Of a DNA stretch of 64,000 bases, positions 18,838 through 40,375 are shown one piece after another. The stretch spans positions 5,828,001-5,892,000 of the forward strand of contig CM034546.1 of NCBI GenBank assembly GCA_020055645.1, given 5' to 3'. Positions within the stretch are counted from its first letter, which is position 1, and each line of letters begins with the position of its first letter. A program made the translations under genes and the position numbers. The stretch comes from Tomocerus qinae (lineage: Eukaryota > Arthropoda > Collembola > Entomobryomorpha > Tomoceridae). The notes under the pieces were generated by a model. That model saw nothing but the letters and a program-made list of their open reading frames with translations, searched no databases and was not told the DNA's origin.

Positions 18838-19629
18838 TACCTGATTGATTCCTGCATTTTGAGATCTAAATCAGGTCGAGAAGCTTATCATTAACTGTGG
18901 ATTACATAATACAGGTAATTAACATACTTCAACAGCCAACAGCAAGTATGGTGTGTGGTTCGTTTGGTGGTCAGTGCATTCTAATCACATGATATCTCTT
19001 AATTTTCATGGCCAGGGTATTCATCCGTCATTAAATTAATAATAATGTGTAATATAGTAGTTATATTTACCCAATGTGTTCAATAGTGATACAATGAAAT
19101 AAATATCCATCAGTTTATTTACTGAATGAAATTAAAGTTAAATAATTTAAATTGAAAATAGTTTTATTGCTAAATTTAAATAATTATTTCGTGAAATATG
19201 CAAAAATATATAAACTAATTAATCTCCATGAATTTGCATGTATACCGGGAAATGGGGAATATGATAACCTGTTATTTATATGTTATAAGCATAGATAATT
19301 CAACATAATTTATTCAATCAATCAATCAGTTGTCTGTCAAAATGTTTTTAAACTCTCTAAGCACTATTGCAAAATATGTTGACTTCCATGAGTGCATGCT
19401 GAGTGGATTTAATAGCATTCAGGTTATCAATGATAATTTTTATACCTGGTTAAGGAGAATTAATTATGCATGCCATCATACTCACATGTATTTTTATTGA
19501 GCAATTGAGTGGTAATCCATAGTTAGTATTTAAAACTGTTGTTTTTTAAAATGATGAATTACATTATGTTGTGCAAATCTTACAAACCAAAATCTTCGAG
19601 TCTTATCACGAGTTGTCTGCAAAACCATT
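18838..19629. other. intergenic spacer between glutaminase and the Polinton-like element
   Basis: AT-rich DNA with no gene seen. Its last six bases (ACCATT, 19624-19629) are the left copy of the target duplication. Confidence 0.5.
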
Positions 19630-20865
19630 AGTAGAAGTGTAAGAAGGGGTTCTCAACAATGAGTGTACCGATAGATTCAGTTCCAGCCATCTTTATTTAG
19701 GGGGAGTGGGCTGGGCTAGCCAACCCACCCACCCCCAGCCAGTCCCTACCAAAATTGGCGCCAAGTCAAGCTCGGCGCCAATTCCTAAGAGCGCTAAAGC
19801 CATAAAAGCAAGCAAGCAAAGGAGAGAGAGAGAGAGAGGCATGTTTCCAGCTCGGCGCATCGCACACGACTGAGCTCCTGCTCCCCGAGTGCCGCTATTT
19901 ATACCTCCCGTCCCCCTACCCAGGCTGTTGCTCCGCCCTAGTCACCGCTGATTGGCTGCTGCCAATCGCCCCTCTCCTTGGTTTCTCTCATATCCCTATA
20001 AGGGCCTACTATACTCTACTATAAACCCTTCATGCTGCCGCAGTAGAGCACGTGATTCCCATGCTTCCCATGTGCTTCCCATGCCGCTCCACGTTGCTCT
20101 GTTAGCACCCTCTGCTCCACCTATCGCAATTATTTTGAACTATCACTATAACTATACACTATGTGTATACTAACTATTCACTATAACTATACACTATGTG
20201 TATACTAACTATTCACTATAACTATACACTATGTGTATACTAGTTATATAAATGAGCTAAACGTTGATGCTTTGTTTCGAGAACGAGAGGCAAGCAAAGT
20301 AAGCCGGTAGTTCTCGACAACACAATGAGTTAATTAGCTTGACGATAGACTGAATAGTCAATGGTCAAGCGGTCAACAGTAAACTTCCTAAAGTAGACAG
20401 TCTGCGTATATTGATACAATAGAATAAATCCATTTCTCATATCGCATGGTCTTATTTCCAATATCTATGCAATAAAATTAAGCTAAACGTTGATGCTTTG
20501 TTTCGGGAACGAGAGGCAAGCAGAGTGTAAGCCGGTAGTTCTCGATAACACAATGAGTTAATTAGCTTGAGCATAGACTGAATAGTCAATGGTCAAGCGC
20601 TCAATAGTGAATAAATGAAGAGAGAATAATATTTGTTGCGTTGTGAGTAGAGGTTGAGAAGAGACTGAGTGAAGATGAGGGTAGCTATTTTTAGATTTCT
20701 CCCCCCTCATTCGTTCACAGAACGTTCTCGATGCCAGATGTGTCAGTATAACTATGGATATTATATACTCATGCTTTTAAGTAAAAGATATAACTATAGC
20801 TGTAGATGTTATATACTCATGCTTTTAGGTACTAGATATACTTATAGCTGTAGATATTATATATT
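19630..20865. repeat. left terminal inverted repeat
   Basis: It matches the right end in inverted orientation with few substitutions. Compared with the right copy, it carries an extra block of about 228 bp (roughly 20,252-20,480), produced by duplication of the GCTAAACGTTGATGCTTTG..GTCAATGGTCAAGCG segment, plus one extra 60-bp unit near its inner edge. It includes a GAGAGAGA run and three copies of a 35-bp unit (CTATAACTATACACTATGTG..). Confidence 0.9.
19692..19903 (-). promoter_or_regulatory. outward-facing promoter unit in the left inverted repeat
   Basis: On the minus strand a TATAAATA box (19903-19896) is followed 32 bp later by the arthropod initiator TCAGT (around 19871). An AATAAA polyadenylation signal is reached at 19697-19692. 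Transcription would leave the element toward the glutaminase gene, whose ATG is 850 bp away on the same strand. Confidence 0.6.
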
Positions 20866-21208
20866 CAAGCTTTTAGATACTAGATATACTTATAACTATG
20901 GATAGTAGATATATTTATAACAACTGTACATAATATATTTACATCAATAAATGACATAGCAAAAAATATTTTATATAAAAATTAATTACATATTATTTAT
21001 TTACATTCGCATACTATCATATATTAATTAATTACATTATACAATTATTTATTACACTTGCATGGTATCGTATAATAATTAATTACACCACGCGTATTAT
21101 TAATTGCATTTGGCATAATATTACATATTATATAAACTAGTTTCATACGACCTCCCATCAATCATTCTCAAAACATATTCAAGTAAATATATGTTCAAGT
21201 AGAAACTA

Positions 21209-21406
21209 TTGATGGAGATGTCTTTGATAATCTCAAAAAATTGCCGCTCATATTTGGGAGCATTGACATTAATTCAATTACCCCTAGAGGAACTCCTGGA
21301 AATAAATCAACGCCATGACAACTATAACTTGGTTGAAGAATATAGAAAAATGAATCCGGGAGAGGACGAAGTAGGATCTATATTAAAGTGGAAAATATAT
21401 CCCTGA
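21209..21406 (+). pseudogene. fragment related to exon 2 of the element zinc-finger gene
   Basis: A 65-codon frame contains LIQLPLEELLEINQ, matching IELSLEELLQINE in exon 2 of the intact minus-strand gene (26700-26960), and a following Met/Glu-rich stretch. The zinc-binding part is missing, and no flanking exon could be joined. Confidence 0.5.
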
Positions 21407-21981
21407 AAGTGATGACACTTAATAAAAATTTACCGATTTTCGTTAAGAAATCAAGATTTGGTCGTTCAAAATGATTGAAATTAGGACATTTTTAGAAAAA
21501 TTACGCAATTTTCTTTAAAAAAATCCTAGAATTGATAGAAAAAGTAATGCAATAGGAAGAATTTTATTTCAAGTAGAAAATATTTCCCTGAAAGTGATGA
21601 CGTTGAATGAAAATTTACCAATTTTCATTACGAAATATAGATTTTGTTGTTGAAAGTGTAAGCATTTAGGCTCGATAATTGAAAAAAGTGAAGAAAAAAC
21701 GCCGTGAAACATGCTAAAATCGATGAAAAACACCGTAAAACACGATGATCACGATGAACACCGCTGTGAATTTCTTTTTCCTCCTATAACCCAACTCGTG
21801 TTGGGGGATTCATTCCCACAGCAAAGGAATTAGAGGGAAAAGGTTTAATAAACATAGAAAATAAAGACAACTATTGTTTTCTTTATTGCGTCTATGCGCT
21901 TCCCTATCCTGTAAAAGCTTTTAAAAGACTTAGGGTTAGGCCCTATTTTGTAAAGATGCAAGATCCTAGCTGCAAACTAGC

Positions 21982-22242
21982 ATGTTTATGAGCTGTCTCA
22001 TAGCATTACAGGACTTTACTAGATTTGAAAAAGCTAGCAACTTATCTTATGATGTTTATTTTTATAAGAGGCATGTGGAAAAACTCTATCTCTATGACGA
22101 AGAAAATCCTGTCTTGGATTTAATAGAGAAGCTGCTTTTAGAAGCAGACGAATATTTAAAAAGAATCAATGAGTTTGAACCAATTCATGTGACACCAGAA
22201 AATATTGCAGTTCATTGTGTTAAATCACTTCTCCCGAATTAA
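21982..22242 (+). CDS. hypothetical helical protein, 86 aa
   Basis: An open frame from ATG 21982 with coding-like composition: charged, predicted helical (KRHVEKLYLYDEENP, DLIEKLLLEADEYLKRI). A stop lies five codons upstream, so it is either a complete small gene or an exon fragment. The next frame begins 4 bp after its stop. I recognise no family. Confidence 0.4.
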   Translation: MFMSCLIALQDFTRFEKASNLSYDVYFYKRHVEKLYLYDEENPVLDLIEKLLLEADEYLKRINEFEPIHVTPENIAVHCVKSLLPN

Positions 22243-22246
22243 AAAA

Positions 22247-22399
22247 ATGAAAAAACGTTTAACCTGTTCTGAGTGTTCAGAAAAATTTGGTAAAGCATGG
22301 AAAGTTCACTCCAAATCCAAACATCCCTCGGTGAAGTATATTTTTGAAAAAATGGGAATAAAGAAAAAATTTGGAATCTCTATCCGTGGATTTTACTAG
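22247..22399 (+). pseudogene. zinc-finger fragment related to exon 1 of the element zinc-finger gene
   Basis: The 50-residue frame starts MKKRLTCSECSEKFGKAW and continues KSKHPSVKYIFEK, aligned with KRLQCSVCSRQFTQ..LAKHPECKYIFKN of the intact gene. The Cys pair is kept. The first His position is present, but the finger spacing is altered. It ends early at TAG. Confidence 0.55.
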
Positions 22400-22637
22400 A
22401 ACGCCGGTAACAGATCTAGCTGCCTTAGATGACCTCTCTCGAAAATGGCAAAAAATTTGAGAAATAGAATTGGAAAGTCACAACAAGTGAAGAAGGGAAA
22501 CGATTTATATTTCCAAAAATATTCGTAAAATAGGAGCTTATTGTATACCACTATAATAAGTTCACATAGGCAAAAAGCCATTTAAATTTGAGATGCATAG
22601 AACATATCTCAAAATAGAAGGTTGAAGATTTTCGAGA

Positions 22638-22832
22638 GTGAACGCTCTCAAAGTGGAGAGCGCAATCTGTGGAAAGTCGTTTGAGAGTAAATATAATCTT
22701 AAGAGACACATAGAAAAAGTTCATCTCACTCCAAATCCAAAAAAACTATATTACATCACCAAAACGGCTACGAGAAGAATCTTCGGTAGCATTTTATTTC
22801 GGCTAATCCTGTCTTATTTTTTTTTCGTGTAA
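22638..22832 (+). pseudogene. second C2H2 finger fragment
   Basis: It contains ICGKSFESKYNLKRHIEKVH, a near-complete C2H2 finger in which the first Cys position reads Ser-Ala. There is no usable ATG and no joined neighbour. Confidence 0.45.
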
Positions 22833-22851
22833 ATATAATATGTACTATCAG

Positions 22852-22956
22852 TCTATATTTATGCCTATACTGCGAGTATGATGGCATTGGAATGGATACT
22901 TTAAGAACTCATCTAAGGGTTAAGCATAAAAATCTTCTAGAGGGCAGTTGGGAAAA
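22852..22956 (+). pseudogene. zinc-finger exon related to exon 5 of the intact gene
   Basis: It is bounded by an AG acceptor (22850-22851) and a GTAAGT donor (22957). It reads LYLCLYCEYDGIGMDTLRTH followed by LRVKHKNLLEG, nearly the same as LYLCPHCDHAG..TLRTHLKLKHKSILQG in the minus-strand gene, with matching exon edges. This exon looks intact, so part of a spliced plus-strand gene may survive. Confidence 0.55.
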
Positions 22957-23032
22957 GTAAGTACAGTAGTTAGAATTTGGTTTTGTAAAATTGACAAAAA
23001 ACCTTCAACGACAACTTCTTAATAATAAAATT

Positions 23033-23185
23033 ATGGAGGCTGATGTCTACCCTTCGGAGGAAGATGAAAGTTCTTCCTCGGAAAATGAATCTGGAACGTC
23101 CTCGGGCTCTGATGCTGATGATGAACAAGAATCTTCGACAGACGAATATGAAAGCACTTTTGTAGATTCTGTGAATTTCCACTAG
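23033..23185 (+). CDS. acidic Ser/Glu-rich open frame, 50 aa
   Basis: ATG 23033 opens a frame of almost only Ser, Glu, Asp and Gly (EEDESSSSENESGTSSGSD). Such acidic stretches link zinc-finger and nuclear domains in many proteins, so it may be an exon of the damaged plus-strand gene. No domain is recognised. Confidence 0.35.
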   Translation: MEADVYPSEEDESSSSENESGTSSGSDADDEQESSTDEYESTFVDSVNFH

Positions 23186-23548
23186 TAATGATGAGCAAAA
23201 TTTTCCTCGTAACTAATTAACTTCTCTGGAATCTAAGATCTTATCCTAAGGTGGATGAAAAAGAAGGGTCCCGTACACATAAGTGAAGACAGGGAGAAAA
23301 AACTACATATGCGCTGTTTGTGTGGTATATCCTTAAACACATTTATAAACTTGCTAAAGGTATTTAATTTCCAGTATATTATATACCCCTATAATATACA
23401 ATCCTTTCATCAGGGCTTTAGTTTGACTGCAGACTTTGAAGAGTAAACATGATCCCCACAAAGGCTCTCACCGAAGGCGTACTCAAGGTACTAATTTTGT
23501 ACGCTGCTATGTAAGATAAATTTCTAATTCCTCTTTTTTTAATTTTAG

Positions 23549-24484
23549 TACAAATGCTACGTGCAAGGATGCTACTATCGCTCGCGATATTCTGAGCAGC
23601 TAAAGCTGCACAATCGTAGTACTCACGCTTGCAATCTTTCAGATTCGTGGATGGTAAGCGATTATACCTGCACGCTTGGAAAAATCTTTGAAAAAGTATC
23701 TTTCGGTGACACTTCAATGGTGTTTCGAGCAAAGAACTTGTCCGTGTTTGGAAATCTAAAAGAAGATCAAGACAATTTACAAGCTCACGCTGTGGCTGTT
23801 TTGACAGATGTTATTCTCACTGGTGTAGATATAATGTTTACGATTACAGACAGTGAACTGAGGCAAGTTAGAACTCCTACATTTACTCTCATCAATATCA
23901 ACCTCTTCCCAGTTTTACTAAGTGCTGCCTTCAACTATGAGCAGGCCGAAGCAATCTTGCCATCTTGCTTCGACATCTACGTAAAGCATCATACGCCGCC
24001 ATTCTACTATGGATTTCTTGCAAAGCCTACTGAATTGGGAATAAGAAGAGGATTTTTGAATATAAGAACTAAATACTCTTGTTCCCTTCTACACTGTATA
24101 ACAGCTGCGTTAAACCCTGTAGAATGTGGCCTAGGGCGGAATAATCCGAAAAGCTACTCCACTTCATCTTTGTCCTATAAAAACATAAATAATTTCGATT
24201 TCTCAAAATTTGAAATAGAAAATAATATCACTATCAATATTTATACATCAGTGAAAAACTATGTCTACCCGCTAGTAGTAACCAATCAGAGAGGAGTAGC
24301 TAGAGAACGCCATATTAATTTGTTTCTGGTTAGAAGTGGGAAAAAGGCGCACTACATTCTAATTACTAACATCTCTGCCTTTTTCGGGAATTCCAAAAAT
24401 AAGTACGACGTCTGTAGATATTGTCTACAGCGTAGTTACAAGGCAATTGAGGAACATGAGGAAAAATGTAATTTTTATAGATAA
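23549..24484 (+). CDS. C2H2 finger fused to a PolB-N-terminal-like module (partial)
   Basis: The exon begins in phase 0 after a TTTTAG acceptor (23547-23548). It first encodes a finger of C-x4-C-x12-H-x4-H type (YKCYVQGCYYRS..LKLHNRSTH), then about 270 aa ending ..CRYCLQRSY..EEHEEKC and a stop. The string FDFSKFEIENNITINIY, then a PLVV..ERHINLFLV block, HYILITNISAFF and the closing C-x2-C..H-x4-C knuckle match the region found just ahead of the exonuclease domain in PolB proteins of Polinton-like elements of invertebrates. The exonuclease and polymerase domains are absent, and no continuation is seen in the next 670 bp, which is minisatellite. It is either a truncated PolB relic or a captured stand-alone module. 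The upstream exon(s) are uncertain. Confidence 0.65.
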   Translation, partial: YKCYVQGCYYRSRYSEQLKLHNRSTHACNLSDSWMVSDYTCTLGKIFEKVSFGDTSMVFRAKNLSVFGNLKEDQDNLQAHAVAVLTDVILTGVDIMFTITDSELRQVRTPTFTLININLFPVLLSAAFNYEQAEAILPSCFDIYVKHHTPPFYYGFLAKPTELGIRRGFLNIRTKYSCSLLHCITAALNPVECGLGRNNPKSYSTSSLSYKNINNFDFSKFEIENNITINIYTSVKNYVYPLVVTNQRGVARERHINLFLVRSGKKAHYILITNISAFFGNSKNKYDVCRYCLQRSYKAIEEHEEKCNFYR

Positions 24485-24639
24485 ATTATTTCTAAACTAA
24501 TGTTATTATGAACTAAATATAATTATTATTATTTGAAAATTAAAAAAACTAAAATTACTTGTAATGAAAACTAAATTATGAATGAAATGAAATTCTAAAT
24601 GAAATTCTAAACTTATAAAATATTTGTAATATAAACTAA

Positions 24640-25130
24640 GATGTTTTCTAAATTCTCTTTCTCAAACTTTTCAATTTCTACATTCATTTTCTAAATTCTC
24701 TTTCTCAAACTTTTCAATTTCTACATTCATTTTCTAAATTCTCTTTCTCAAACTTTTCAATTTCTACATTCATTTTCTAAATTCTCTTTCTCAAACTTTT
24801 CAATTTCTACATTAATTTTCTAAATTCTCTTTCTCAAACTTTTCAATTTCTACATTCATTTTCTAAATTCTCTTTCTCAAACTTTTCAATTTCTACATTC
24901 ATTTTCTAAATTCTCTAAGTATTTATAACGAAAACTAAAATTATTGCTAAAATTAAACTATTTGTAAAATTATTTCTAAAATTAAAGTATTTGTAACGAA
25001 AACTAAAATTATTGCTAAAATTAAACTATTTGTAAAATTAAAACTAAAAATAAAGTATTTGTAACGAAAACTAAAATTATTGCTAAAATTATTTCTAAAA
25101 TTGTTTGTAATAAAAAAAAACTAAAATTAT
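24640..25130. repeat. 43-bp minisatellite and a following AAAATTATT-rich array
   Basis: About six copies of a unit with TTTTCTAAATTC, TCTTTCTCAAACTTTTCAA and TTTCTACATTCA occupy 24,640-24,915. They are followed to 25,130 by degenerate CTAAAATTATTGCTAAAATT repeats. The TTTTCTAAATTC core returns in the other arrays of this element. Confidence 0.85.
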
Positions 25131-25153
25131 TTGTAATGACAATTATTGAATGA

Positions 25154-27414
25154 TTATAAACATCTCTCATTCTCTTTATGTGCTTCCATCAAATCGCAGA
25201 CAGTTGTGCGGAAGGTGCATGTGGAACACTCGGAGAGTTGTTGTCCATGTTGAAAAATGCTGTGTATTTCGTACGCTGGTCTCGCGTCGAAACTCTTCTC
25301 GCAAAATTGGCAGTTGTACGGCGCTGGTACAAAAGGATTCTCACTAAAAGAAAAGAATAGAATTAGAAATAGTTGAATTGAAATATTTAGAAAAATAGCT
25401 TTAATGAAACTTACTGAAAAACTGCACAATGTCGTTGAAGTTTTTCTTCGTCGTCTTCTATTTTAAGGCATTTACTGCAGATCATCTTTTCGTGAACAGA
25501 AGAGACATGCACTTGTAGTCTCCCCTTTCGGTCATACTTTGACGGGCAGATAGAACACTCATAGGCCATTATGTGCGAGTGCATATGACGCTCTTTTTCT
25601 TTTATTCCACTCCATGTGCAATACAGGCACTTGTAGATTATTTTGTCTGTAAATGTACATAACAACTCATAACACACAAGCATAATAAACTTTTAAATGA
25701 GCCCATACCTTTTTTTATTATATCTTTTTTTCCTTTCGGGACTTCAATAGGCGCTAAGCTGCCGACTTGCATAATTTTCTCATGATATAGAATATTATGG
25801 ACTGCAAGGGAAAGCTCTCCTTTGCATTCTCTACTGCAGTGAGTACAGGGAATGATTCCTCTAAGATTAAATATTTAACAAAAACATATTAGATATATTT
25901 ACAGCTACTTATTAGCTAGTAGGTATTAAATTATTCAGATAAGTCTAGTGTAAAAAATAGTTAAGATATGAGTGATATAATGATGTATATTATAGTACTT
26001 ACTCCCCTCCAGCTCCTTGTAGTATACTCTTATGTTTCAATTTCAAATGTGTCCGTAGGGTTTTTATTTCAGCTCCAGCGTGATCACAATGAGGGCATAA
26101 ATATAGAGTTTGACCTACAGGAATATAATTATTGTACATAGTGTTTAAAATTAGATAAAAACGAGAAATTAAAAATTCTACCTTCAATTTTTGGCCTCTG
26201 TGTAAATTGTATCAATTCTTCAGCGTTAGGGAGAAGAAGTATTTTGCTATGGTATATGATTTCATGGATTGATTTATCCCACTCCACGAGGAATTTCTTA
26301 TTACAGAATTGGCAAGGGATGTCATTCGCGGGAACACTATAATTTAAATAATTTATTTACAGTTCCTCAATATTATCAGCGTTTAAACAAAATTAAACTT
26401 ACTGTTTAGTACGACGATGTTGTATGATACTTTCAATCGTTTCTTCCACATGTGAACATATAAAGCATACAAAATTTCTATGCATAACATTGCAATGCTT
26501 CTCATATATTTTTTTATCCTCGTTAGCGAATGAACATAATTTACATTGAAAAGGTATAAAATGCTCCATCAAATGTTTCTTCATTCTGTGCGGTGTAGGT
26601 ACGTTTAGTTTACAGTAGGGACATATAAGTGCTCCATTCTCTGCGCAAAAAAAGGGAAAAAATTATACTCCACTTAAATAATATACTGCAACTGCTTACC
26701 TTTAATGTGGCTACGTTTCCATCTTCTCGTGTACTCCTTCTCCTTGGATAGATTTTCCATTTCTTTCCAATCCATATTTTTTTGAAAGTTTTCCAGCCAT
26801 TCGTTAATTTGTAGGAGTTCTTCTAGCGATAGCTCGATTGATGAGAATTGAAGAATACTCATCAATCGAGAATGCTCTCCTTTCACATGAGTCGCAATTT
26901 TCGCTAGGCAATCAAACACATCTCCGCAGCCGCGGCATAAGTAATGTTGATTAGGTAAGTCTAAAAAAAGACATTGATTGCAATCTACAGTTGTATAACC
27001 TAACTTTGATTAGATATAATTGAAAACAAGATTACCTTCAATTAAAGATTGATTCACTGTTACAGTTCCAAATCCTTGTGCTTTTGCCTTATCCCAGGTA
27101 ACTGTATTCTTCTCCTTAAAAGTACCTGTGTCCTGCTCTTTATTTTCCGGTTCCTCCGTTTCTTGTACGACACCTTCGTCACTAATATGTCTTGCCACTT
27201 CACACTCTAAATTTATTTTACTGTCAGCGGAATCGCTGCTGACGAAAAACTTTTTACACAGAGGAGCTGAAACTCCATGCTTCCTCTTAATTATATTATT
27301 TTTAAAAATATATTTGCACTCAGGATGCTTCGCCAAAAAATGGCGTTTTAGATTACACGCTTGAGTGAATTGTCTGGAACATACACTACACTGAAGACGT
27401 TTAGAGTTTTCCAT
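25154..27414 (-). CDS. multi-C2H2 zinc-finger protein, element cargo, intact
   Basis: Eight exons on the minus strand (27414-27036, 26960-26700, 26640-26403, 26336-26182, 26114-26003, 25860-25709, 25646-25415, 25343-25154) join with correct phases and GT-AG sites into 572 aa. About a dozen Cys/His fingers can be seen, for example CSVCSRQFTQACNLKRH, CRGCGDVFDCLAKIATH, CPYCKLNV, CKLCSFANEDK, CQFCNKKF, CPHCDHAG, CTHCSRECKG, CSICPSKYDRKGRL and CQFCEKSFDARPAY. Exon 1 ends in an acidic linker. Finger linkers are not the TGEKP type, so this is not a standard arrayed zinc-finger gene. DNA or RNA binding in the nucleus is inferred. It could bind the element's own terminal or minisatellite repeats, which is speculation. 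All splice sites are intact, so the gene is probably expressed. Confidence 0.88.
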
Positions 27415-27734
27415 TTTAGTAAACCACAGTAACTCTTTCAACAAAACACAATGAACACTAATCAACAGGGCAGAGAGTAGAGCAGAAATAAAACTACTTG
27501 ATGGAAAGAGAGAGAAGAGCGGAGAGAGGAATGCAGCTTCCTTTTTGAGATACGCCCTCACTTCTCTTTAATTGGTTAGGGTACTTAACAGACAAAAATA
27601 GAAAGAATAAGAAGGGAGCATTTTCTTTGTTTGAATAAGACCCTTCAAAGACAGCATGCGATGGTACGCATGATAACATCTGCATTTTCAACTAATTCAA
27701 TACCAACCATTTCTTCTCATATGCATTTGATATT

Positions 27735-28150
27735 TTCTAAATTCTCTTTCTCAAACTTTTCAATTTCTATATTCATTTTCTAAATTGCTTTTCTCATTTT
27801 CATCTCACTAGTTTCATTTTCTAAATTCCTTTTCTCATTTTCATCTCACTAGTTTCGTTTTCTAAATTCCTTTTCTCATTTTCATCTCACTAGTTTCATT
27901 TTCTAAATTCCTTTTCTCATTTTCATCTCACTAGTTTCGTTTTCTAAATTCCTTTTCTCATTTTCATCTCACTAGTTTCATTTTCTAAATTCCTTTTCTC
28001 ATTTTCATCTCACTAGTTTCGTTTTCTAAATTCCTTTTCTCATTTTCATCTCACTAGTTTCATTTTCTAACTTCATTTTCTCATTATTTATCACAATTTC
28101 ATTTTCTAACTACATTTTCTCATTTTCATTCCATCGTTTCATTTTAGTAA
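27735..28150. repeat. 41-bp minisatellite, seven to eight copies
   Basis: Units contain TTTTCTAAATTCCTTTTCTC, ATTTTCATCTCACTAGTTTC and end alternately in A or G. One copy of the 43-bp unit from 24,640 sits at its left edge, showing that the two arrays have a common origin. Confidence 0.88.
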
Positions 28151-29035: not shown

Positions 29036-30273
29036 CTAGTATTCCTTGCCGCAACGCATCTTCCTTAAAGCAAAAGTGGTCCCTGGTGCAGCATTCCTTA
29101 GAGACTGTATAGCAGAGCCAATTCGAGATGTCCCTTGAACAGAAGTGTTAGACTCAAATGACTCGTCTTCGGTTAACTGCATGCTGTAATCCGAGTCATC
29201 ATGCCGCTGCTGCTGAGGAGTGGAAGTGGCGGACGGAGAGAAAGAGGTTTCCTGTTGAAGGGGACGCAGTGGCTGCAGGCGAGAAGTTGATGGGGGAGAA
29301 AAGAGACGGCTACGACGAAGACCAGATGAGAGCACGTCCATTTCCAATCTTTCCTGTTGCTGCTGATGCTCAACCGCCTGCAATGAGAACAATAAATTAT
29401 ATAGCAATCATCTACAATATCATTTTTACTATCTACATTTACTATAAAAACGTATAATACTTACATCGAGAAAAGCCAAGTCTTCTTCTGAAATTCCAGA
29501 AACTCGACTTCGGAGATTGGTTGTAGTTGGTGCAGAGGTGAACTTTGATCGCAGCCAACCCCAGGCCGAAGCTGGAAGAGAAGAGAGCCAAGACCAGGTC
29601 GATGCAGGAAGAGAGGAGAGCCAACGCACGAATCGCCTACTCCAATTGTCTGCAGGGTCGAACAGGTTCACAACGAAAACAATGGAAACGACCACTAAGG
29701 TAGCGAGGAGAAGAAAGGAAGTCCAAAATCCAATACCTAAAACAAATATTCAAATTAGCATAATACAAAGACAAAGGAAATGAATATATATAAGTAATAA
29801 AGACAAAGGAAAGTTGATTGTATATACGTTTACAAAGACAAAGGAAAGTTAAATGTTAAATAGTTAGTACCATATGTAAAGCCAGAGTTAAAGCCGTCGT
29901 GTTCCAATGTTTGAGGAGTAGAATTTCCAGGAGGAGGAGCTGTAGTACCTGCTGTGGTGGGATCGGTAGTAGTAGTGGCTTCGGTAGTAGTAGTAGTAGT
30001 TGTTGTTGTTGTTGTAGCCAAGCCCGAGGACGGCAAAAACTGGCAGAGCAGAGAGTCCCCACTGTCAATCGCGCTGAAGGGTCCATATATCCCCGTGAGG
30101 GTCGGTGTCCAGCAGAATTGTCCTTCCTCTTGAAGTATCCATGCACAGGACGCCTTCAAACAAGTCTCACAGAACTTGTGAATCCCGCAAGAAGCTGAAA
30201 TAAAGAGACAAATTAGCATTTTTCCTAAAATGCAGTAGTGTATGTATGTTGAATTGTAGTAATAGTTACCCAT
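29036..30273 (-). CDS. single-pass membrane protein with Cys-rich head and Thr-rich stalk (element cargo)
   Basis: Exons 30273-29871, 29736-29465 and 29377-29036 (minus strand) join in frame to 338 aa. The N-terminus (residues about 1-27, YCILGKMLICLFISA) works as a signal peptide. It is followed by a small Cys cluster (CGIHKFCETCLKASCAW), a run of Thr with Ala, Pro and Glu that looks like an O-glycosylated stalk, a transmembrane helix (FLLLATLVVVSIVFVVNLF), three WLSSLPAS-like Trp repeats, and a 150-residue cytoplasmic tail rich in Gln, Ser and Pro. A TATA box is at 30443-30437. The head is similar to that of the divergent gene at 31183 (CGQYSNSCTHCLRSGC), so the two are paralogues. The Cys pattern is PSI-like but too short to assign. 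The function is unknown; cell-surface display is inferred. Confidence 0.78.
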
Positions 30274-30436
30274 TGCAGAAAGAAGCGGCAGAGTTTCTTC
30301 CGAGCAGAGTTTGGGCAGAGCAGAGTTGATCCGAGAAGAGGTTTTCCAGGCAAGTAGAGTAGACTTCTGGGGAAGAGAGTTGTTTTTTCCAAGAGAGCAG
30401 GAGAGTTTATGAGAAATTACTTGTTTCGAATTCTCC

Positions 30437-30443
30437 TTTTATA
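30437..30443 (-). promoter_or_regulatory. TATA box of the membrane-protein gene
   Basis: TATAAAA on the minus strand lies 164 bp ahead of the ATG at 30273. The leader between contains repeated CTCTGCTC/AACTCT motifs and no other ATG in the last 100 bp. Confidence 0.5.
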
Positions 30444-31182: not shown

Positions 31183-32320
31183 ATGGCAAATTTTTTTAAA
31201 ATCGTCGGAATTTTGGCTTTTTTAACTTCGGTTTTAGGGTGCGGGCAGTACTCAAATTCTTGCACTCATTGTTTGAGGTCAGGGTGCGTTTACGTAACAT
31301 ATAAAGTAGGTTCGCGATGTCAGAGTCAGGCTGATTACAAGATGAAGATCCGAGTGATTTATTTCGAAGCTTCTCAGTGCCCTGTTGTATTCCCTACCAC
31401 GCCCAAAGTTTCCTCTACAACTGAGTATTCGCAATTAATTACCACTTCTTCAATATTCGATTTCACTCAAAGTTCACTTGAAACAACCATTAGATCTGCT
31501 GAAACTACTCATAGTGAAACTACAAGCCAAACTACAAAAATTCTACCTACAGACATTTTACCTACTGAGACTGTTGTGATAATTTCCAGTACAAGCAGTG
31601 TTATTGAATCTAGTGTGACTGAATACACGCCTACAGAAAGAGGAGAACATGTAATTACTAGTGAAGATGTACCTACAAATGGGACTTTAATAACTGACAC
31701 TTTAACAACTGAGACGGCAACTTCATCAACTGAGACTTTAACAACTGAGACGGCAACTACTGAGACTACAATTCCCCAGACTCCGTCAACTGAGAGTTAC
31801 GTTCCTGAGACTACTACAGCCACGTCACCGACTATTGAAACTACACAATCATCGGGAGTATCGGAAAAGGGTCGAGGTAAAGTATTCAAAAATATTTATT
31901 CTTGAGAAAGAATAATTATTAAATTTTAACAATATCTTATCCACAGAGAGGAGGTTTTTGAAAAAGCGGATATTTTTTGCCAGGCTTAATGATGCTCTCT
32001 GCGACCTTCATGAGACTACTTCTCAACTATTAGGATTGCAGGATATACCTAAACAAACCGAGAGAAAAAAGTGGCTACTCCAGTCTCCGCTCAACTTTAC
32101 TCATCTCAAATGCAATCCATTCCCAGCTAAAAGTCGTGGACTGTTTAGAAGATCTTTACGTAGCTTTTGTAATATCTATCGAGGAGTTGAATGTTATTTG
32201 AAAACTGAATATTTGCAAAAGGAGACAAGAAAGTATTTATCAAAATGGAACTCTCAAAATATTATGTATCATAATGTAATCTGTTTAAATTTCAAAAATC
32301 CATTCCAAAAATGTTTTTAA
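31183..32320 (+). CDS. secreted Cys-head, Thr/Ser-rich mucin-like protein (element cargo)
   Basis: Exons 31183-31876 and 31947-32320 join in phase 1 to 355 aa. It has a signal peptide (MANFFKIVGILAFLTSVLG), a Cys cluster CGQYSNSCTHCLRSGCVYV with further Cys to residue 66, then about 160 residues of Thr, Ser, Glu and Pro with TLTTETAT-type repeats typical of O-glycosylated mucin domains. Exon 2 encodes a basic, helical C-terminus (RRFLKKR, LLGLQDIPKQ, several Cys) without a transmembrane helix. It is divergently arranged with, and paralogous in the head to, the gene at 29036-30273. The partner is membrane-bound while this one seems soluble. The spliced exon 2 is supported by a CCACAG acceptor and phase only. 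Confidence 0.72.
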
Positions 32321-32339
32321 TCGTCTGTGTACTTTAAAA

Positions 32340-33755
32340 TTAACTTTTCTAACTTCGTCTTCTCATTATTGCTCTTTATTTCATTTTCTAACTTCGTCTT
32401 CTCATTATTACTCTTTATTTAATTTTCTAACTTCGTCTTCTCATTATTACTCTTTATTTAATTTTCTAACTTCGTCTTCTCATTATTGCTCTTTATTTAA
32501 TTTTCTAACTTCGTTTTCTCATTATTGCTCTTTATTTCATTTTCTAACTTCGTCTTCTCATTATTACTCTTTATTTAATTTTCTAACTTCGTCTTCTCAT
32601 TATTACTCTTTATTTAATTTTCTAACTTCGTCTTCTCATTATTGCTCTTTATTTCATTTTCTAACTTCGTCTTCTCATTATTACTCTTTATTTAATTTTC
32701 TAACTTCGTCTTCTCATTATTACTCTTTATTTCATTTTCTAACTTCGTCTTCTCATTATTACTCTTTATTTCATTTTCTAACTTCGTCTTCTCATTATTA
32801 CTCTTTATTTAATTTTCTAACTTCGTCTTCTCATTATTGCTCTTTATTTCATTTTCTAACTTCGTCTTCTCATTATTACTCTTTATTTAATTTTCTAACT
32901 TCGTATTCTCATTATTGCTCTTTATTTCATTTTCTAACTTCGTCTTCTCATTATTACTCTTTATTTAATTTTCTAACTTCGTCTTCTCATTATTGCTCTT
33001 TATTTCATTTTCTAACTTCGTCTTCTCACTATTACTCTTTATTTAATTTTCTAACTTCGTCTTCTCATTATTGCTCTTTATTTAATTTTCTAACTTCGTA
33101 TTCTCATTATTGCTCTTTATTTCATTTTCTAACTTCGTCTTCTCATTATTACTCTTTATTTAATTTTCTAACTTCGTCTTCTCTCTTTATTTAATTTTCT
33201 AACTTCGTCTTCTCATTATTGCTCTTTATTTAATTTTCTAACTTCGTCTTCTCATTATTACTCTTTATTTAATTTTCTAACTTCGTCTTCTCATTATTGC
33301 TCTTTATTTCATTTTCTAACTTCGTCTTCTCATTATTACTCTTTATTTCATTTTCTAACTTCGTCTTCTCATTATTACTCTTTATTTAATTTTCTAACTT
33401 CGTCTTCTCATTATTACTCTTTATTTAATTTTCTAACTCCGTCTTCTCATTATTGCTCTTTATTTAATTTTCTAACTTCGTATTCTCATTATTGCTCTTT
33501 ATTTCATTTTCTAACTTCGTCTTCTCATTATTACTCTTTATTTAATTTTCTAACTTCGTCTTCTCATTATTGCTCTTTATTTCATTTTCTAACTTCGTCT
33601 TCTCATTATTACTCTTTATTTAATTTTCTAACTTCTTCTTCTCATTATTGCTCTTTATTTCATTTTCTAACTTCGTCTTCTCATTATTGCTCTTTATTTC
33701 ATTTTCTAACTTCGTCTTCTCATTATTACTCTTTATTTAATTTTCTAACTTCCTT
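32340..33755. repeat. 40-bp minisatellite, about 35 copies
   Basis: The unit is TTTTCTAACTTCGTCTTCTC plus ATTATTGCTCTTTATTTCA, in two main forms: G/C (ATTGCTC..TTTCAT) and A/A (ATTACTC..TTTAAT), which alternate irregularly. A short deletion unit lies near 33,180. It shares the TTTTCTAA-TTC..TTCTCA core with the arrays at 24,640 and 27,735 and with the introns of the gene at 37638. There is no coding potential. Confidence 0.95.
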
Positions 33756-34077: not shown

Positions 34078-34165
<88 letters not shown>

Positions 34166-34181
34166 ACTGTCCCTATCTACT
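34078..34181 (+). rRNA. 28S rDNA fragment (pseudogene), R1/R2 target region
   Basis: About 104 bp match the highly conserved large-subunit rRNA core: CGGCGGGAGTAACTATGACT, CTTAAGGTAGCCAAATGCCT, GTGACGCGCATGAATGG, CGAGATTCCCACTGTCCC and TATCTACT, in order and without visible change. Similarity stops abruptly on both sides. It spans the insertion sites used by R2 and R1 retrotransposons. It cannot work as rRNA. Confidence 0.92.
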
Positions 34182-34894
34182 TTCTAACATAAACACTTTT
34201 CAGAAAAGGGTTTTTTGCCTACAGTCACCTAGGATAGGTTAAGATAGGTCTCCCTTGCCCCTTAAATATGAAAAAACATGGTAGGTGCGGCATTAGTGGG
34301 AGACTTTGCGTCAGTTTTGAAAAACTGCTACAGTTTTTTCAAAATTATAGCAAACTGAAAAGTTTAAGCGAATCAAATCTATTTGATTCGACATACTGAG
34401 GCTATTAGCTTTCGAATGAGCTATGACACGACCCAATTCTGACGAATGGAACGGAAGTTACGTCTACAGGTGTCCATTTTTATTACTCCCCTCTGGGTGG
34501 GACGATTTTGTTCATTTTCAAACTTGACCTCACCATTCATCCCTAGACTGCGCACAGAAAGTTTGAAGCGCCTATCTAAAGCCAATCTTAAGTTACGGAA
34601 TAATATTTACTACTAGTAAAGTCAGGTAGGGGCAAATCTAGCGCTCGAGGGAAATTCAGCAGTCCACACTTCAAAGTAGTAAAAACAATTTTGAAAACAT
34701 TCCTAACGTTATTATTATGTCAACTTTGTAAATACAAAGTATATTTAAATTAAAAACTTTAACGTTTATAGTGGTGGATAAATTAGCTGCAGCCCAAACT
34801 TCCTGATAAAAAGGAATTTCCTAAACCAAAATATTAACTGTAGATCGTAGCTTCAAATGCAGGGAAAAATGAAAGACTCCATTTTTGAAACAAA

Positions 34895-35460
34895 ATCCCA
34901 CAAAGTCGCCAAAAAAAGTTCCCTTTTAAATCGGAAAAATAATATTCCCCCTGGGATTTTGGAAAAACGTACAAATTCTATGAGTAGAGGAATAAATATT
35001 TTTTGAGAAAAGTTAGTTACCCAGCACTGTTATTTAATTCTACAAAAAGGTGTGCCAACTGCCAAAATAATCAAGACGGTAGTAAATGTAATCTCAGGTC
35101 TTCTAAAAAATGTTGAATAAGTTTGTCGATATAGCAGAATCAATTCGGATTAGAAGTTTTGTAACGCTATATATTTAATACGCACATTAAGATCATTACA
35201 AAATATGTCCTCCAATCATTTCCATTCAATCACTACTCACCATTCAACTTTCTGATTTCTATTTTTTATTTTGATGTTATATATACAGTAATAATAATAA
35301 TAATATGAAACGACTCATTTCGATGCTTTAGAGGAAGTGGACATGCGAATTTTGCTGGTACATGCATATTATATTACATATGCAGTTGATGGGAGGAGGT
35401 GGTACTTAAAGTGTTACAGTCAGCACTTGCGTTACACACGGAGAAAGGGTTTTGCATTGC
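34895..35460 (-). repeat. dispersed repeat, copy 2 (inverted relative to copy at 11,640)
   Basis: It shares CCCCCTGGGATTTT, CAAATTCTATGAGTA, AGTTAGTTACCCAGCACTG, GAAACGACTCATTTCG and TGCAGTTGATGGGAGGAGGT with copy 1 in reverse order and orientation. The two differ by scattered substitutions and small indels, so they are not recent. Confidence 0.8.
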
Positions 35461-36340
35461 GCAATATAAATCTGAAAAATGCCATTATTCACTTCAATAA
35501 TAAACCGACCACTTCCACTGCTCACTCTCCTAATTCACGGTTTTCGTACATTTATGCTTAAAGGGTTCATCAAATTAATCGCCATTACATAAAGTATATC
35601 TCCAAGATTATTATGATATGTACGTAAATAGTTAAATATGAAGCTTATATATCCAATTTTAAATGTCAAAATGACCGTGCCTAGTAATGATTGTCTTCGT
35701 GATTCGAAATGAAAATCGAACGCTAAAATGTCAATATGTTGATTAATTCATGCTAATACTAATTGAGATCTCGAGATATTTCATGCATTTATTATTTATC
35801 TTGACTGATCCGTCAATACGCAAGGTACCAGCTTTGCCATCTGTGAGATTCCGGGAGCATAAATATGCGCGCGATAGAGTCAAACAGAAGCCGCTATTTT
35901 GCTTTCTTCGCCTAAGATTCCCGTCACATTAAGTTGCTCTTGTTTCTTTCTTACCCAACAGTTACATTTTTACGTACAGTGCAGTGTAGTTAAAGTGGCA
36001 ATACAAAAATTAAGCACGTTGCAGTTGGACAGTGCCGCTCGTTTGCTTTTTTCGCAGAATTTTTGAGGGAAATGTTTGGCAGAACCTAAAGTCTAAAGGG
36101 AGATTCAAATGAAAATAAACCGGGCGATTCTAGTCACTTAAGGAGTTTTGGATCTCATCTTTTATTCACTGTTGCTACAATTTTTGTAAACAGGGAGTTC
36201 GGTAAGCTAACAAATTAAATTGGAATTATTTATACAAAAAATACAATTTAGTGAAATGCGGATGAGGGAACTGTAGAGTGGCATAAAATAATACATTTTG
36301 AATATCAGCGGAGGCCCCAAGCTGCACATGCATCATCAAC
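35461..36340. other. spacer within the element, no gene seen
   Basis: No supported frame. The frame at 35750-35932 has no homology or splice evidence. Confidence 0.4.
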
Positions 36341-36420
36341 CGTGCACCTGACAGATATATTATTATCAGTGTACAAAATTTACTACTTTTTTAGCCTTAA
36401 AGTTATACCATTTTTTCAGA

Positions 36421-36605
36421 GTGAAGGTGTCTTCGACATGTCCGTATTAGACGATTCAACATCGAGATTCATTGAAGGATTTCCTACTGGCTTGTCAAGC
36501 ATAATGAATTTAAGTTTGGGATCTGCTTCTACCGAGGATGATAAGTGCAAGTGTACTACAAAATGTGTTAATACGTCTTCTAAGAAAACTGTCCCTTATC
36601 CCTAA
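36421..36605 (+). CDS. candidate terminal exon of an unknown protein
   Basis: A strong acceptor (CATTTTTTCAG) opens a 61-residue frame with coding-like composition (FDMSVLDDSTSRFIEGFPTG, then DDKCKCTTKCVN) ending at TAA 36605. No first exon could be identified. The CKCTTKC motif is not assigned to a family. It is weakly supported. Confidence 0.3.
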
Positions 36606-36653
36606 TCAAGACTTCCTGTATTCTATTCTTATTATTTCATAATAAGAGAATCG

Positions 36654-36870
36654 AGAGTCGGAGTCAAATTTTCGAAAATTAGCTTAGCTAGTAGCTTATT
36701 TAAATTTAAAATCCCTCTCCTTCCCCCTTAGCATAAAATTGTACACTGTATAGGTACCAAAGGTATCAATTCGGTGTATTATCATACTTTGGTGTGCCAA
36801 TTTATGCTAAGAATTTGTTGAGGGGAAAATGGAGTGAGGTGCTAAATTCCAACTCCGACCCCAGACTACC
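36654..36870. repeat. long imperfect inverted repeat
   Basis: GTCGGAGT..AAATTTT at the left pairs with AAATTCCAACTCCGAC at the right. The inner arms CTTAGCATAAAATTG and CCAATTTATGCTAAG, and ACCAAAGGTAT with ATACTTTGGTGT, also pair, so the RNA would fold into one hairpin of about 200 nt. It immediately precedes the hairpin cluster at 37,115. Confidence 0.65.
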
Positions 36871-36923
36871 TCATTCCTACTTTTGGAAAAAGATAATAGG
36901 AAATCCAATTCAAAAGGCCAAAC

Positions 36924-37403
36924 ATGACTCCTACAAACGAAAAGGAAACTTTGCAACCTTCTAGATTGAAATTCATAACCTTACCAACAAACAATTCCAA
37001 TGATGCCATAGGAGTGGATGGATCTACTACGCATTCTACCCCATCTTCGAGGTTTAAAGGTAAGAATATGTGAAAATGTTCGTAACAATTTAGAATTTTC
37101 AAAAAAAACTTATAGGCATTTGCCTAGCATGTTTACATAATATGTAGACTTGCTAGGCAAATGCCCAGCATGTTTAAATATTATGTAGACTTGCTAGGCA
37201 AATGCCCAGCATAGATATACAAGCAATCTCATTTGCCTTTGAGTAGTTCACATGCAATGAACTACTCAAAAGCAAATGAGCTGCTCTATTGATATAATAT
37301 GTTTAATCCCTATTTTTCCATTCTCTTAAGTATATAATAAGAATGGAAAGATAGGGATTTAATTAAATTTGATTTTTTTGCAGGAAAAGAACATTCACCT
37401 TAG
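36924..37403 (+). CDS. candidate 51-aa protein, two exons
   Basis: ATG 36924 opens an exon ending with TTTAAAG and a GTAAGA donor (exon to 37059). The acceptor TTTTTTGCAG at 37383 adds seven codons in correct phase to a stop at 37403. The product is polar, Ser/Thr-rich (LPTNNSNDAIG, STTHSTPSS) and has no signal peptide. The intron contains three of the hairpins described below, so this could be a host transcript for small RNAs rather than a protein gene. Confidence 0.35.
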
Positions 37404-37565
37404 ATAAGTAACAAAGAATCTAGTCATCAACATTTATTAAAAATGTTGATGACTAGATTCTTTGTTTCTTCTTCTTATTTTAGGAAAGTGAATTGTTGGG
37501 CGATGTCCAGTCTTCTCCACAACTCCTCGTCGCACAGGTCTAGCCACAGGACATCGCCCAATAAT
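37115..37565 (+). ncRNA. cluster of five strong hairpins, possible small-RNA precursors
   Basis: Seen directly: hairpin A 37115-37165 (25-bp stem, 1-2 mismatches), with its 3' arm tandemly duplicated to 37212. Hairpin B 37222-37285 (28-bp arms, 7-nt loop, one mismatch and one bulge). Hairpin C 37304-37358 (about 22 bp). Hairpin D 37410-37466 (perfect 26-bp arms, 5-nt loop). Hairpin E 37492-37565 (17 bp, 40-nt loop). The stem sequences are unrelated to each other. Assignment as microRNA-like or siRNA precursors is inference; most loops are shorter than usual for animal microRNAs. The strand is unknown and is set here to match the neighbouring gene. Confidence 0.4.
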
Positions 37566-37637
37566 CTTTTCGTCGTCGTCTTCCTTCGCCCCTCTTCTTC
37601 GTACTCTCCTTTCTCGTCTCCTCTGCAGATCTTCGCC

Positions 37638-38557
37638 ATGGCTCCAACATCCGAGCAGCTCCGAAGCAGCCTTCTGGAACTATTCAGAAAAAAAATTATT
37701 AACGCCGCGGAGAGGAAAGAAGTGGTAAGTTTTTTTTCTACAATTATAAAATATTTAGGAATTATTTATTTTAATTTTAAAAATATTTAGTAATTATTTA
37801 TTTTAATTTTAGAAATATTTAGGAAATAATTATTTAGACTTACCATTTTTTATTTTTATTTCACAGCTGCTGTCGAAAGATAAGAAACGAGCCATCGAGG
37901 CTTTGGTCTCTTTCAGTGTTGAGGGAAGAAAAATCGTCCAGCAACACTGGAAGTTGACCAAACCTCTGAAGAGACTGCAGGCCCATGGCGAGGTGAAGTT
38001 GGGGAGAAGAATTAAATACGACCAGGTTATCTACATCCCCCTGGAGTCTGGCAGCGCCCGCAAGGTAATTAAATAATTTTTCTAAATTCCCTTTCTCAGG
38101 TTTTTCACGTTCTAAATAATTTTTCTAAATTCAATTTCTCAAGTTTTTCACTTTCTAAATAATTTTTCTAAATTCCCTTTCTCAAGTTTTATTTACTAAT
38201 TTTATTTTTCTGATTTTATTACAGGAAGCCTACCGGTGCCAACGATGTGGTAAGGAATTTAAGACCAGAAGCGGCGCTGTCCAGCACTTCAAGGGGGTGC
38301 ACATAGGAAGAGCGAGGAAGATGTGCGACAATTGTGGCAAGACCTCGACATTTAATAATATCATGCGTCATATTAGAAGTTGTGGAGTAAGTGCCTTTCC
38401 AATTATATTTTTATTCTAGTTTGACATGAAGGAATGATACTAATATTTTATTATTTATTTGCAGGGAGACCGGGAATATGCAGCACCAATTTTGACAGGA
38501 ACTGAGAGGGACGAGTGCACTGCAGCAGCCGCCCTTATTAACCTTGCCTCTCATTAA
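37638..38557 (+). CDS. two-finger C2H2 protein, compact element cargo gene
   Basis: Four exons, 37638-37724, 37867-38064, 38225-38386 and 38465-38557, all joined in phase 0, give 179 aa. The N-terminal 95 residues are basic and helical (SSLLELFRKKIINAAERKEV, LLSKDKKRAIEALVSF). Exon 3 carries YRCQRCGKEFKTRSGAVQHF with KGVH, and CDNCGKTSTFNNIMRH with IRSCG. The C-terminus is short and Ala-rich. The consistent phase-0 introns, perfect splice sites and higher GC in exons than introns mark an active gene. Introns contain TTTTCTAAATTC repeats like the element's minisatellites. A role as DNA-binding regulator is inferred only from the fingers. Confidence 0.85.
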
Positions 38558-38789
38558 AATATGATTAAACTTTTATTCATTGTGCTTTCGTGCCTAAGGG
38601 CCTTAATTTATGACTTTGTATGACAATGATTATGCTAAGAATTTTAAATATTATAAAAATGCTTAATTTGACTTAAATTAAAAATCACTGCAACTAATTA
38701 ATATCAAGCTTTGCTTTTATTACTAGCTTACGCATATTAGTTCTAGCTTACGCATAATTGTTTAGCTTTTATTGGCTTTCATTAGTTAT

Positions 38790-39360
38790 ATACATACATA
38801 CATCTACATATACATTATAATATTACAATACATTACACTACATACACACACATAACATACTTACATATCTACATGTACACAGCATAGGTAGACAATTACA
38901 CACACACACTCACTACATATCTACATGTACATAGCATAGGTAGACAAGTACACACATACAGTCACTACATATCTACATGTACATAGCATAGGTAGACAAG
39001 TACACACACACACTCACTACATATCTACATCACAGTTATACTTACATACAACATAAGTCAGCATAGCTATACATATACATAACTACACAGTCCTTACATA
39101 GCTACATACACATAACTACACAATCCTTACATAGCTACACACACACACACACATTACATGTCTACATCACAGTTATACTTACAACATAACACAGCATTGC
39201 TATACATACACACACCTACTTACCCCATGCATACATTTACATACAGCATTACTACATACATTATAACATAGCATAGCTATACATAGACATAACTACACAG
39301 TCCTTACATAGCTACATACACATAACACAGTTACACACACAAAAGTACACATTCACTCAT
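38790..39360. repeat. ACATACACAC-type low-complexity region
   Basis: Interspersed copies of CTACATATCTACATGTACA, CATAGGTAGACAA and CACACACAC runs. It lies just inside the right inverted repeat. No gene. Confidence 0.85.
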
Positions 39361-39404
39361 CATAAGTACAGATAAATACAGATGCTTTGCCATAGAAGCT
39401 TTTA

Positions 39405-40369
39405 GTGAATATATAATATCTACAGCTATAAGTATATCTATTACCTAAAACATGAGTATATAATATCCATAGTTATACTGACACATCTGGCATGGAGAAC
39501 GTTCTGTGAACGAATGAGGGGGGAGAAATCTAAAAATAGCTACCCTCATCTTCACTCAGTCTCTTCTCAACCTCTACTCACAACGCAAGCAAATATTATT
39601 CTCTCTTCATTTATTCACTATTGAGCGCTTGACCATTGACTATTCAGTCTATGCTCAAGCTAATTAACTCATTGTGTTATCGAGAACTACCGGCTTACAC
39701 TCTGCTTGCCTCTCGTTCCCGAAACAAAGCATCAACGTTTAGCTCATTTATATAACTAGTATACACATAGTGTATAGTTATAGTGAATAGTTAGTATACA
39801 CATAGTGTATAGTTATAGTGAATAGTTAGTATACACATAGTGTATAGTTATAGTGATAGTTCAAAATAATTGCGATAGATGGAGCAGAGGGTGCTAACAG
39901 AGCATCATGGAACGGCATGGTAAGCACATGGGAAGCATGGGAATCAAGTGCTTTACTGCAGCAGCATGGAGGGTTTATAGTAGAGTATAGTAGGCCCTTA
40001 TAGGGATATGAGAGAAACCAAGGAGAGGGGCGATTGGCAGCAGCCAATCAGCGGTGACTAGGGCGGAGCAACAGCCTGGGTAGGGGGACGGGAGGTATAA
40101 ATAGCGGCACTCGGGGAGCAGGAGCTCAGTCGTGTGCGATGCGCCGAGCTGGAAACATGCCTCTCTCTCTCTCTCTCCTTTGCTTGCTTGCTTTTATGGC
40201 TTTAGCGCTCTTAGGAATTGGCGCCGAGCTTGACTTGGCGCCAATTTTGGTAGGGACTGGCTGGGGGTGGGTGGGTTGGCTAGCCCAGCCCACTCCCCCT
40301 AAATAAAGATGGCTGGAACTGAATCTATCGGTACACTCATTGTTGAGAACCCCTTCTTACACTTCTACT
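39405..40369. repeat. right terminal inverted repeat
   Basis: About 965 bp. Its inner edge is the TATAATATCTACAGCTATAAG stretch. It lacks the internal duplication present in the left copy. A 73-residue frame in each repeat (from 19952 and 40047, both pointing inward) is open only because the two repeats are copies of each other. Confidence 0.9.
40096..40307 (+). promoter_or_regulatory. outward-facing promoter unit in the right inverted repeat
   Basis: TATAAATA at 40096-40103, TCAGT at 40126-40130 and AATAAA at 40302-40307 define a compact unit of about 180 bp. Its first ATG opens a 22-codon frame starting MRRAGN and then hydrophobic. A 10-bp perfect palindrome AATTGGCGCC..GGCGCCAATT lies downstream. 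It may make a short polyadenylated RNA. Confidence 0.6.
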
Positions 40370-40375
40370 ACCATT

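Follow-up and report, generated by a model that had tools for sequence, protein, structure and literature searches.

We examined a 64,000-nucleotide stretch of the genome of the collembolan Tomocerus qinae (assembly GCA_020055645.1, contig CM034546.1, positions 5,828,001 to 5,892,000), hereafter the window, and characterized a 20,740-bp element inserted at its positions 19630-40369. The element probably belongs to a non-autonomous, satellite-like lineage of Polinton/Maverick elements moved in trans, a reading to which we assign a probability of roughly three in four. It was found to be structurally complete, to belong to a family that has inserted repeatedly as whole units, and to carry PolB-related sequence and frames under purifying selection, while no ATPase, protease or polymerase domain was found in it. 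Polinton/Maverick elements were reportedly described by Kapitonov and Jurka in 2006.

Boundaries, related copies and mosaic structure

The element has AG..CT ends and is flanked on both sides by a perfect 6-bp duplication, ACCATT. Both of its strands start with AGTAGAAGTGTAAGAAGGGG, and its terminal inverted repeats are about 97% identical (737 of 756 plus 337 of 349 alignment columns), far above chance, with the outermost 400 bp identical and an internal partial duplication in the left arm. These ends, the duplication, repeats of about 1 kb and the length of 20,740 bp had been described in an original prediction made from the sequence alone, which proved exact to the base. The perfect 6-bp duplication, the ends, the long inverted repeats and a length within 15-25 kb, the range given in a passage of PMC6431247, are those of a Polinton/Maverick element. 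The terminal features are as follows.

19624..19629, target-site duplication ACCATT, left copy
19630..20819, + strand, left terminal inverted repeat, starting with AGTAGAAGTG; three 35-bp units and the internal partial duplication; common to other loci
39406..40369, - strand, right terminal inverted repeat, ending in ..CACTTCTACT
40370..40375, target-site duplication ACCATT, right copy

Two independent insertions were ruled out as the source of the repeats, since the flanking duplication matches, related copies share the architecture, and these outer repeats are found again elsewhere in the genome, flanked there by different 6-bp duplications.

The terminal search for other copies that the original prediction had proposed was made with the first 501 bp of the repeat and returned 68 matches in the genome (334 Mb, 115 contigs). 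Twelve of the matched loci were taken in larger pieces; both ends and the duplication were readable at seven, and at the remaining five the second end lay beyond the fetched stretch or was not recognised. In a recount of 12 related end pairs (end loci L001-L030, including the seven elements read first), perfect 6-bp duplications were found in 11, with 10 different sequences overall, the sole exception being C1:68571132, where the left end was not found. With 11 of 12 end pairs carrying their own perfect duplications, the family moves as whole units, as the prediction had supposed for this copy, and several whole-unit insertions with shared ends are what a non-autonomous derivative should present. 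The related elements are listed below.

C1:33722887-33742277, sibling element, duplication GTTGCT
C1:40114860-40129742, sibling element, duplication TATGTA
C1:29364218-29382435 (L033, L034), sibling element, near-palindromic, duplication TATGTA
C1:79211603-79235280 (L035-L037), sibling element with two different end types, duplication TATGTT
Three short relatives of about 5.1-5.3 kb with repeats of 1.7-1.9 kb, duplications ATTGTG, CCTGTC and ATGGCG
Four further end pairs from the recount, duplications ACTAAC, GAGAAC, CCTTAC and CACACT

Identity among siblings was noted to be uneven. The left part of the element, from 19630 to about 27500, is common to C1:29364218 and C1:79211603. Against C1:33722887, in 500-bp bins, positions 19630-27629 are 68-90% identical and positions 29130-39129 are 83-99% identical; the stretch 36591..37124 has no counterpart in that sibling, where its flanks are 99% identical, and its right edge runs into a hairpin-rich repeat (37113-37212). 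This patchwork, as read from the alignments, fits template switching or recombination between copies. The sibling at C1:79211603-79235280, with two end types and a matching TATGTT duplication, is perhaps a recombinant between subfamilies. In the same sibling, a 341-aa (amino acid) frame at L036:8952-9974 is rich in Arg, Asn and Gly and gag-like by eye, and is possibly a nested retroelement.

The sibling at C1:29364218-29382435 is almost one palindrome, with inverted arms of about 8.4 kb that are 99.5% identical. Such palindromes would look as expected of fold-back copies of a linear, end-primed genome, the alternative being conversion after insertion. From coordinates alone, six pairs of PolB matches are likewise inverted relative to each other, at distances of about 4-6 kb (C1:67603872/67608717, C1:48020953/48027309, C1:39712303/39718272, C1:45429495/45434461, C10:81348/85535 and C7:278391/283085), which suggests that palindromic Polintons are common in this genome.

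Hallmark genes, PolB-derived frames and selection

We searched the element for Polinton hallmark genes. Between 20700 and 39400 there are 119 open frames of 48 codons or more; apart from two tandem-repeat frames, all were scanned against Pfam (117 frames), and only C2H2-type zinc-finger families were recovered at an expectation value (E) of 0.001 or less. Integrase, FtsK/A32 ATPase, adenain and DNA_pol_B_2 were not among the best 25 of 84 Pfam families (single-member rows ordered by E-value, down to 0.02). This absence is treated as weak because the same tool gave no family for an intact 1267-aa PolB frame and recovered PolB (DNA_pol_B_2) only after the frame was trimmed. A better test was tblastn, for which the probes were taken from Polintons of the same genome: one ATPase probe (129 aa), one protease probe (100 aa) and PolB. 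The ATPase piece reached a best E of 8.8 in the element, the protease piece gave nothing at E <= 10, and PolB aa 522-1267 reached a best E of 9.1, so that no counterparts were found; the PolB N-terminal region matched the element clearly (E 2e-32 and 6e-25).

Among the Polinton hallmarks, the element was thus found to have neither an FtsK/A32-type ATPase nor an adenovirus-like cysteine protease, and PolB is represented by N-terminal pieces only. For an RVE-type integrase, no Pfam rve match occurred among the families shown, Pfam being the sole test and one that misses some true matches. No jelly-roll capsid was recognised in the element, again by Pfam alone. The original prediction had reported no integrase, ATPase, protease or capsid frame; tblastn and Pfam agree with it on the ATPase and protease, and for the integrase and capsid it stands as far as Pfam reaches. 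The hidden Markov model check it had proposed, made here with Pfam, yielded the zinc fingers described above and otherwise a weak negative.

The PolB-derived sequence lies in two places, both missed in that first reading.

21770..22215, + strand, decayed PolB N-terminal remnant, matching the PolB frame of L053 at aa 212-283 (65%), 288-313 (46%) and 474-520 (77%)
23549..24484, + strand, 311-aa frame with a C2H2-like start and a PolB-N-terminus-like protein, ending before the exonuclease/polymerase part

The 311-aa frame matches PolB aa 34-379 at 30% identity (E 9e-31), and siblings retain other pieces of the decayed stretch, such as aa 418-521 at 78% in L046. Matches cover PolB aa 34-379 and some of 212-520, and none was found for aa 522-1267; as judged by these alignments, the polymerase is lost and the N-terminus kept. 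The 311-aa frame has 66 matches in the genome, with close copies (54-100% identity) at seven loci including the window. Similarity is much lower in the remaining matches; many of them fall inside PolB frames, and at least three (C1:7682076, C1:21230286 and C1:24890389) lie away from any listed PolB. A protein-homologue search with this frame gave 1224 candidates, none significant, and a PDB sequence search gave no match.

A zinc-finger gene adds to this kinship.

25157..27567, - strand, multi-exon C2H2 zinc-finger gene; frames 27013, 26677, 26402, 26132, 26002, 25641, 25414 and 25157; probable ATG near 27414

Exons at L054:739-2629, next to an intact PolB frame, are collinear with five of its frames; that PolB frame belongs to C5:17453069-17472948, a 19.9-kb element with the target-site duplication TGCACT. 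Because of these collinear exons beside PolB, the gene more likely belongs to the PolB-bearing lineage, and its interpretation as host cargo was rejected. The earlier view that the element carries only cargo therefore does not hold: it contains PolB N-terminal remnants, a selected PolB-N-like frame and a zinc-finger gene also found beside PolB. In PHROGs, the C5 PolB fell into a DNA polymerase family and the 311-aa frame gave weak matches only; a search of viral contigs with that PolB gave a pattern match over one stretch and no confirmed relative.

Selection was assessed from the ratio of nonsynonymous to synonymous substitution rates (dN/dS, Nei-Gojobori) between the element and sibling copies. 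For the 311-aa frame, dN/dS was 0.29 against L046 (C1:40057521) and 0.24 against L031 (C1:33722887; dS 1.24), while the two other forward frames in these comparisons gave 0.86 to 1.75. One nearly identical sibling pair gave 0.85 for the 311-aa frame on four changes. The lowest dN/dS falls in the sole stop-free frame, which by these comparisons indicates that purifying selection is acting on it. Four zinc-finger exons gave 0.16-0.42 in 27 of 29 pairs, the other two being short pairs at 0.93 and 1.84.

Possible helpers, mechanism and alternative explanations

We sought elements in the same genome that could act as helpers. PF03175 matched 83 times genome-wide, in frames of up to 1458 aa, and each of the three A32-type ATPase matches has a PolB or PolB-N-terminal match at a distance of 1-3 kb. 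At least 10 adenain-type protease matches were listed, not including a protease beside PolB at C1:2815276. At that locus, an end carries a 235-bp stretch 76% similar to the window repeat (E 3e-36), with PolB about 5 kb inward in two overlapping frames and a PF00770 adenain-type protease beyond it, above the Pfam cut-off, so that PolB and protease lie 5 to 11 kb from the end. The frame adjoining this protease may represent the end of a Polinton major capsid protein. A search for the end motif gave 50 matches, and its reversed control gave 10. PolB matches lie between the ends in five pairs spaced about 20 kb; four of these pairs hold PF03175 and one a 517-aa PolB N-terminal frame. All three pairs tested carry perfect 6-bp duplications (ATCATT, GACTAC and AGTAGG). 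The PolB-bearing end at C1:117239120, the one end compared, shares 24, 23 and 23 of its first 24 bases with the three short non-autonomous relatives; near-identity over 24 bases was seen between a PolB element and short relatives only.

Since the same genome contains relatives that carry PolB and have related ends, we infer that mobilisation in trans best accounts for the element. The original prediction had called it a non-autonomous carrier mobilised in trans; a complete, repeated unit without a detected ATPase, protease or polymerase domain, and with no recognised integrase, agrees with the first part, and movement in trans is the best available explanation for the second. The element would descend from a PolB-bearing Polinton, having lost the polymerase domain and kept the ends. 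A helper Polinton in the same cell would supply the protein-primed polymerase, the linear element would be copied from its terminal repeats, and the helper's integrase would insert the copy, producing the 6-bp duplication. The element's genes would be kept by selection on elements, less likely by selection on the host. The PolB-N-like and zinc-finger proteins probably influence how element DNA is replicated or transcribed, and a role at the surface of the cell or particle is likely for the mucin-like and membrane proteins. The element's selected genes may modulate helper-driven replication and integration.

A more specific form of this model is possible, although we hold it to be doubtful. Here the elements would be true Polinton satellites that discarded the polymerase and kept, duplicated and selected its N-terminal domain as a free protein capturing or competing for helper replication at shared ends, accompanied by a zinc-finger regulator and surface glycoproteins that belong to the elements themselves. 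In that case, C1:29364218-29382435 and other palindromic members would have arisen when a linear, end-primed genome folded back during replication and the product was integrated.

Several observations weigh against a helper-dependent, selected lineage. Only one end of C1:2815276 was seen, which is joined to PolB and the protease by nearness; its PolB is split over two overlapping frames, and the repeat similarity spans 235 bp only. Only two siblings showed the end type of the element itself (AGTAGAAGTGTAAGAA..), and its end shares 17 of 25 bases with that at C1:2815276, so on this comparison a helper for its own end subfamily is not pinned down. No integrase was recognised in any element examined, and a scan of six further frames, drawn from the three pieces of the C5 PolB element, revealed no other hallmark. 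Regarding selection, frames 35304 and 36255 gave no sign of it (dN/dS 0.83 and 0.96 on few changes). Among controls, the reverse frames of the 311-aa frame gave 0.41-1.96, one reverse frame at 29039 gave 0.19, and six noncoding control frames gave 0.43-1.26, reaching low values at 0.43; low off-frame values are attributed to codon overlap.

Other explanations were weighed on the same evidence. The element could be autonomous, with an integrase and other hallmarks that are spliced or too divergent to recognise; its genes look intron-rich, the Pfam negatives are weak, and capsid and integrase were tested by Pfam alone. However, tblastn with ATPase, protease and polymerase-domain pieces from the same genome finds nothing, and the genome holds many single PolB frames of 1000-1458 aa, whereas the longest non-repeat frame in the element is 311 aa; we regard such hidden autonomy as unlikely. 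Marginally less probable again is a dead, degraded Polinton, that is, an autonomous copy whose genes were deleted after insertion and whose frames are relics. The remnant at 21770-22215 is indeed decayed, and different siblings keep different pieces, but several loci with different duplications share the gene-poor content, which argues that gene loss preceded the spread. The 311-aa and zinc-finger frames have also stayed open, and in the most distant comparisons, where dS is about 1.2, their dN/dS is about 0.25.

We consider it very improbable that the gene set is split over cooperating elements moving together, with PolB and zinc-finger elements, other hallmark-bearing elements and gene-poor carriers forming a multipartite Polinton. 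PolB-type matches and ATPase occur together at three loci, and the gene-poor class may be a mere parasite of complete elements. In favour of a split set, the C5 PolB element had no second hallmark among the six frames mentioned, ends are common to different classes, and the 10 adenain matches listed all fall outside the sibling spans and away from the listed PolB matches, but this listing is incomplete, lacking the protease beside PolB at C1:2815276.

A non-autonomous Polinton lineage can also be compared with known systems. The element resembles Polinton/Maverick elements in the structural features given above and in its PolB-derived sequence, and differs in that no polymerase domain, ATPase or protease was found and no integrase recognised, and in having a PolB-N-like frame that stands alone, together with zinc-finger and mucin-like/membrane frames. 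Terminal sequence common with fuller elements and no recognisable mobility enzymes are shared with non-autonomous DNA transposons like miniature inverted-repeat transposable elements (MITEs), and the short relatives in this genome parallel such derivatives. MITEs are not known to carry genes, whereas this element is 20 kb long with frames under purifying selection. Its AGTAG is close to the (AGT)2 motif reported for vertebrate Mavericks. The comparison with Polinton/Maverick elements drew on PMC6431247, PMC4028283 and PMC8097293, and the literature consulted also included PMC3671162. The Tlr elements of Tetrahymena were earlier suggested to be non-autonomous Polinton derivatives, a label they would share with this element and against which a passage of PMC4028283 argues; in contrast to it, they carry integrase and ATPase genes in common with Polintons, capsid proteins, and a helicase replacing PolB. 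Phage-inducible chromosomal island (PICI) satellites and virophages rely on helper machinery and keep their own genes, according to passages of PMC6431247 and PMC4028283, respectively. The element likewise keeps its own genes and would depend on a helper, but no capsid gene was recognised in it and no packaging evidence was found.

Phrases for non-autonomous Polintons or Mavericks did not occur in the open-access literature searched for them, and broader title searches named no such class among the titles listed, which is not proof of its being unpublished. Polintons sit at the boundary of transposons and viruses. If the reading is true, a gene-bearing passenger class with selected polymerase-N-terminus proteins would parallel, in an animal, the satellites of phages and giant viruses, and would offer a natural test of whether Polintons replicate and whether they are supplied in trans.

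Further genes, repeats and flanks

The remaining features of the element are as follows.

22193..22957, + strand, three C2H2-like zinc-finger frames, possible exons (22193-22396, 22626-22829 and 22790-22957)
24644..24916, 43-bp tandem repeat, 6.3 copies
27772..28145, 41-bp tandem repeat, 9.2 copies
29039..29407, - strand, conserved 123-aa frame
29432..30438, - strand, putative spliced type I membrane protein with a Cys-rich N-terminus, a Thr-rich stalk and one transmembrane stretch; exon join inferred
31183..31902, + strand, Cys-rich, Ser/Thr-rich mucin-like frame with a signal-like N-terminus by eye
31916..32317, + strand, 134-aa frame, in three siblings
32340..33752, 39-bp tandem repeat, 36 copies
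38159..38416, + strand, C2H2 zinc-finger frame (zf-C2H2, E 9e-6)

The 29039-29407 frame may belong to the membrane gene as an additional exon; its dN/dS was 0.06 against L031, and that of the 29432 frame was 0.42. A hydropathy scan of the 31183-31902 frame gave no stretch above 1.8. The mucin-like frames gave dN/dS of 0.24-0.48 (four pairs) and the 31916 frame 0.19-0.87 (computable in five of six pairs). Values of 0.22, 0.55 and 0.50 were obtained for the 38159 frame, the 37404 frame and the decayed PolB piece, respectively.

Outside the element, a 37-bp tandem repeat (7.3 copies, 100% identical) lies at 4964-5232 of the window, and two similar frames of about 170 aa on the + strand (2720-3232 and 14239-14769) look by eye like paralogous copies of one domain. 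The right flank holds adjacent, very long open frames on the + strand, at 48003-50390 (795 aa) and 50525-57640 (2371 aa). Directly left of the insertion is a host gene on the - strand (15462-18057), which may resemble a GtaA-type glutaminase.

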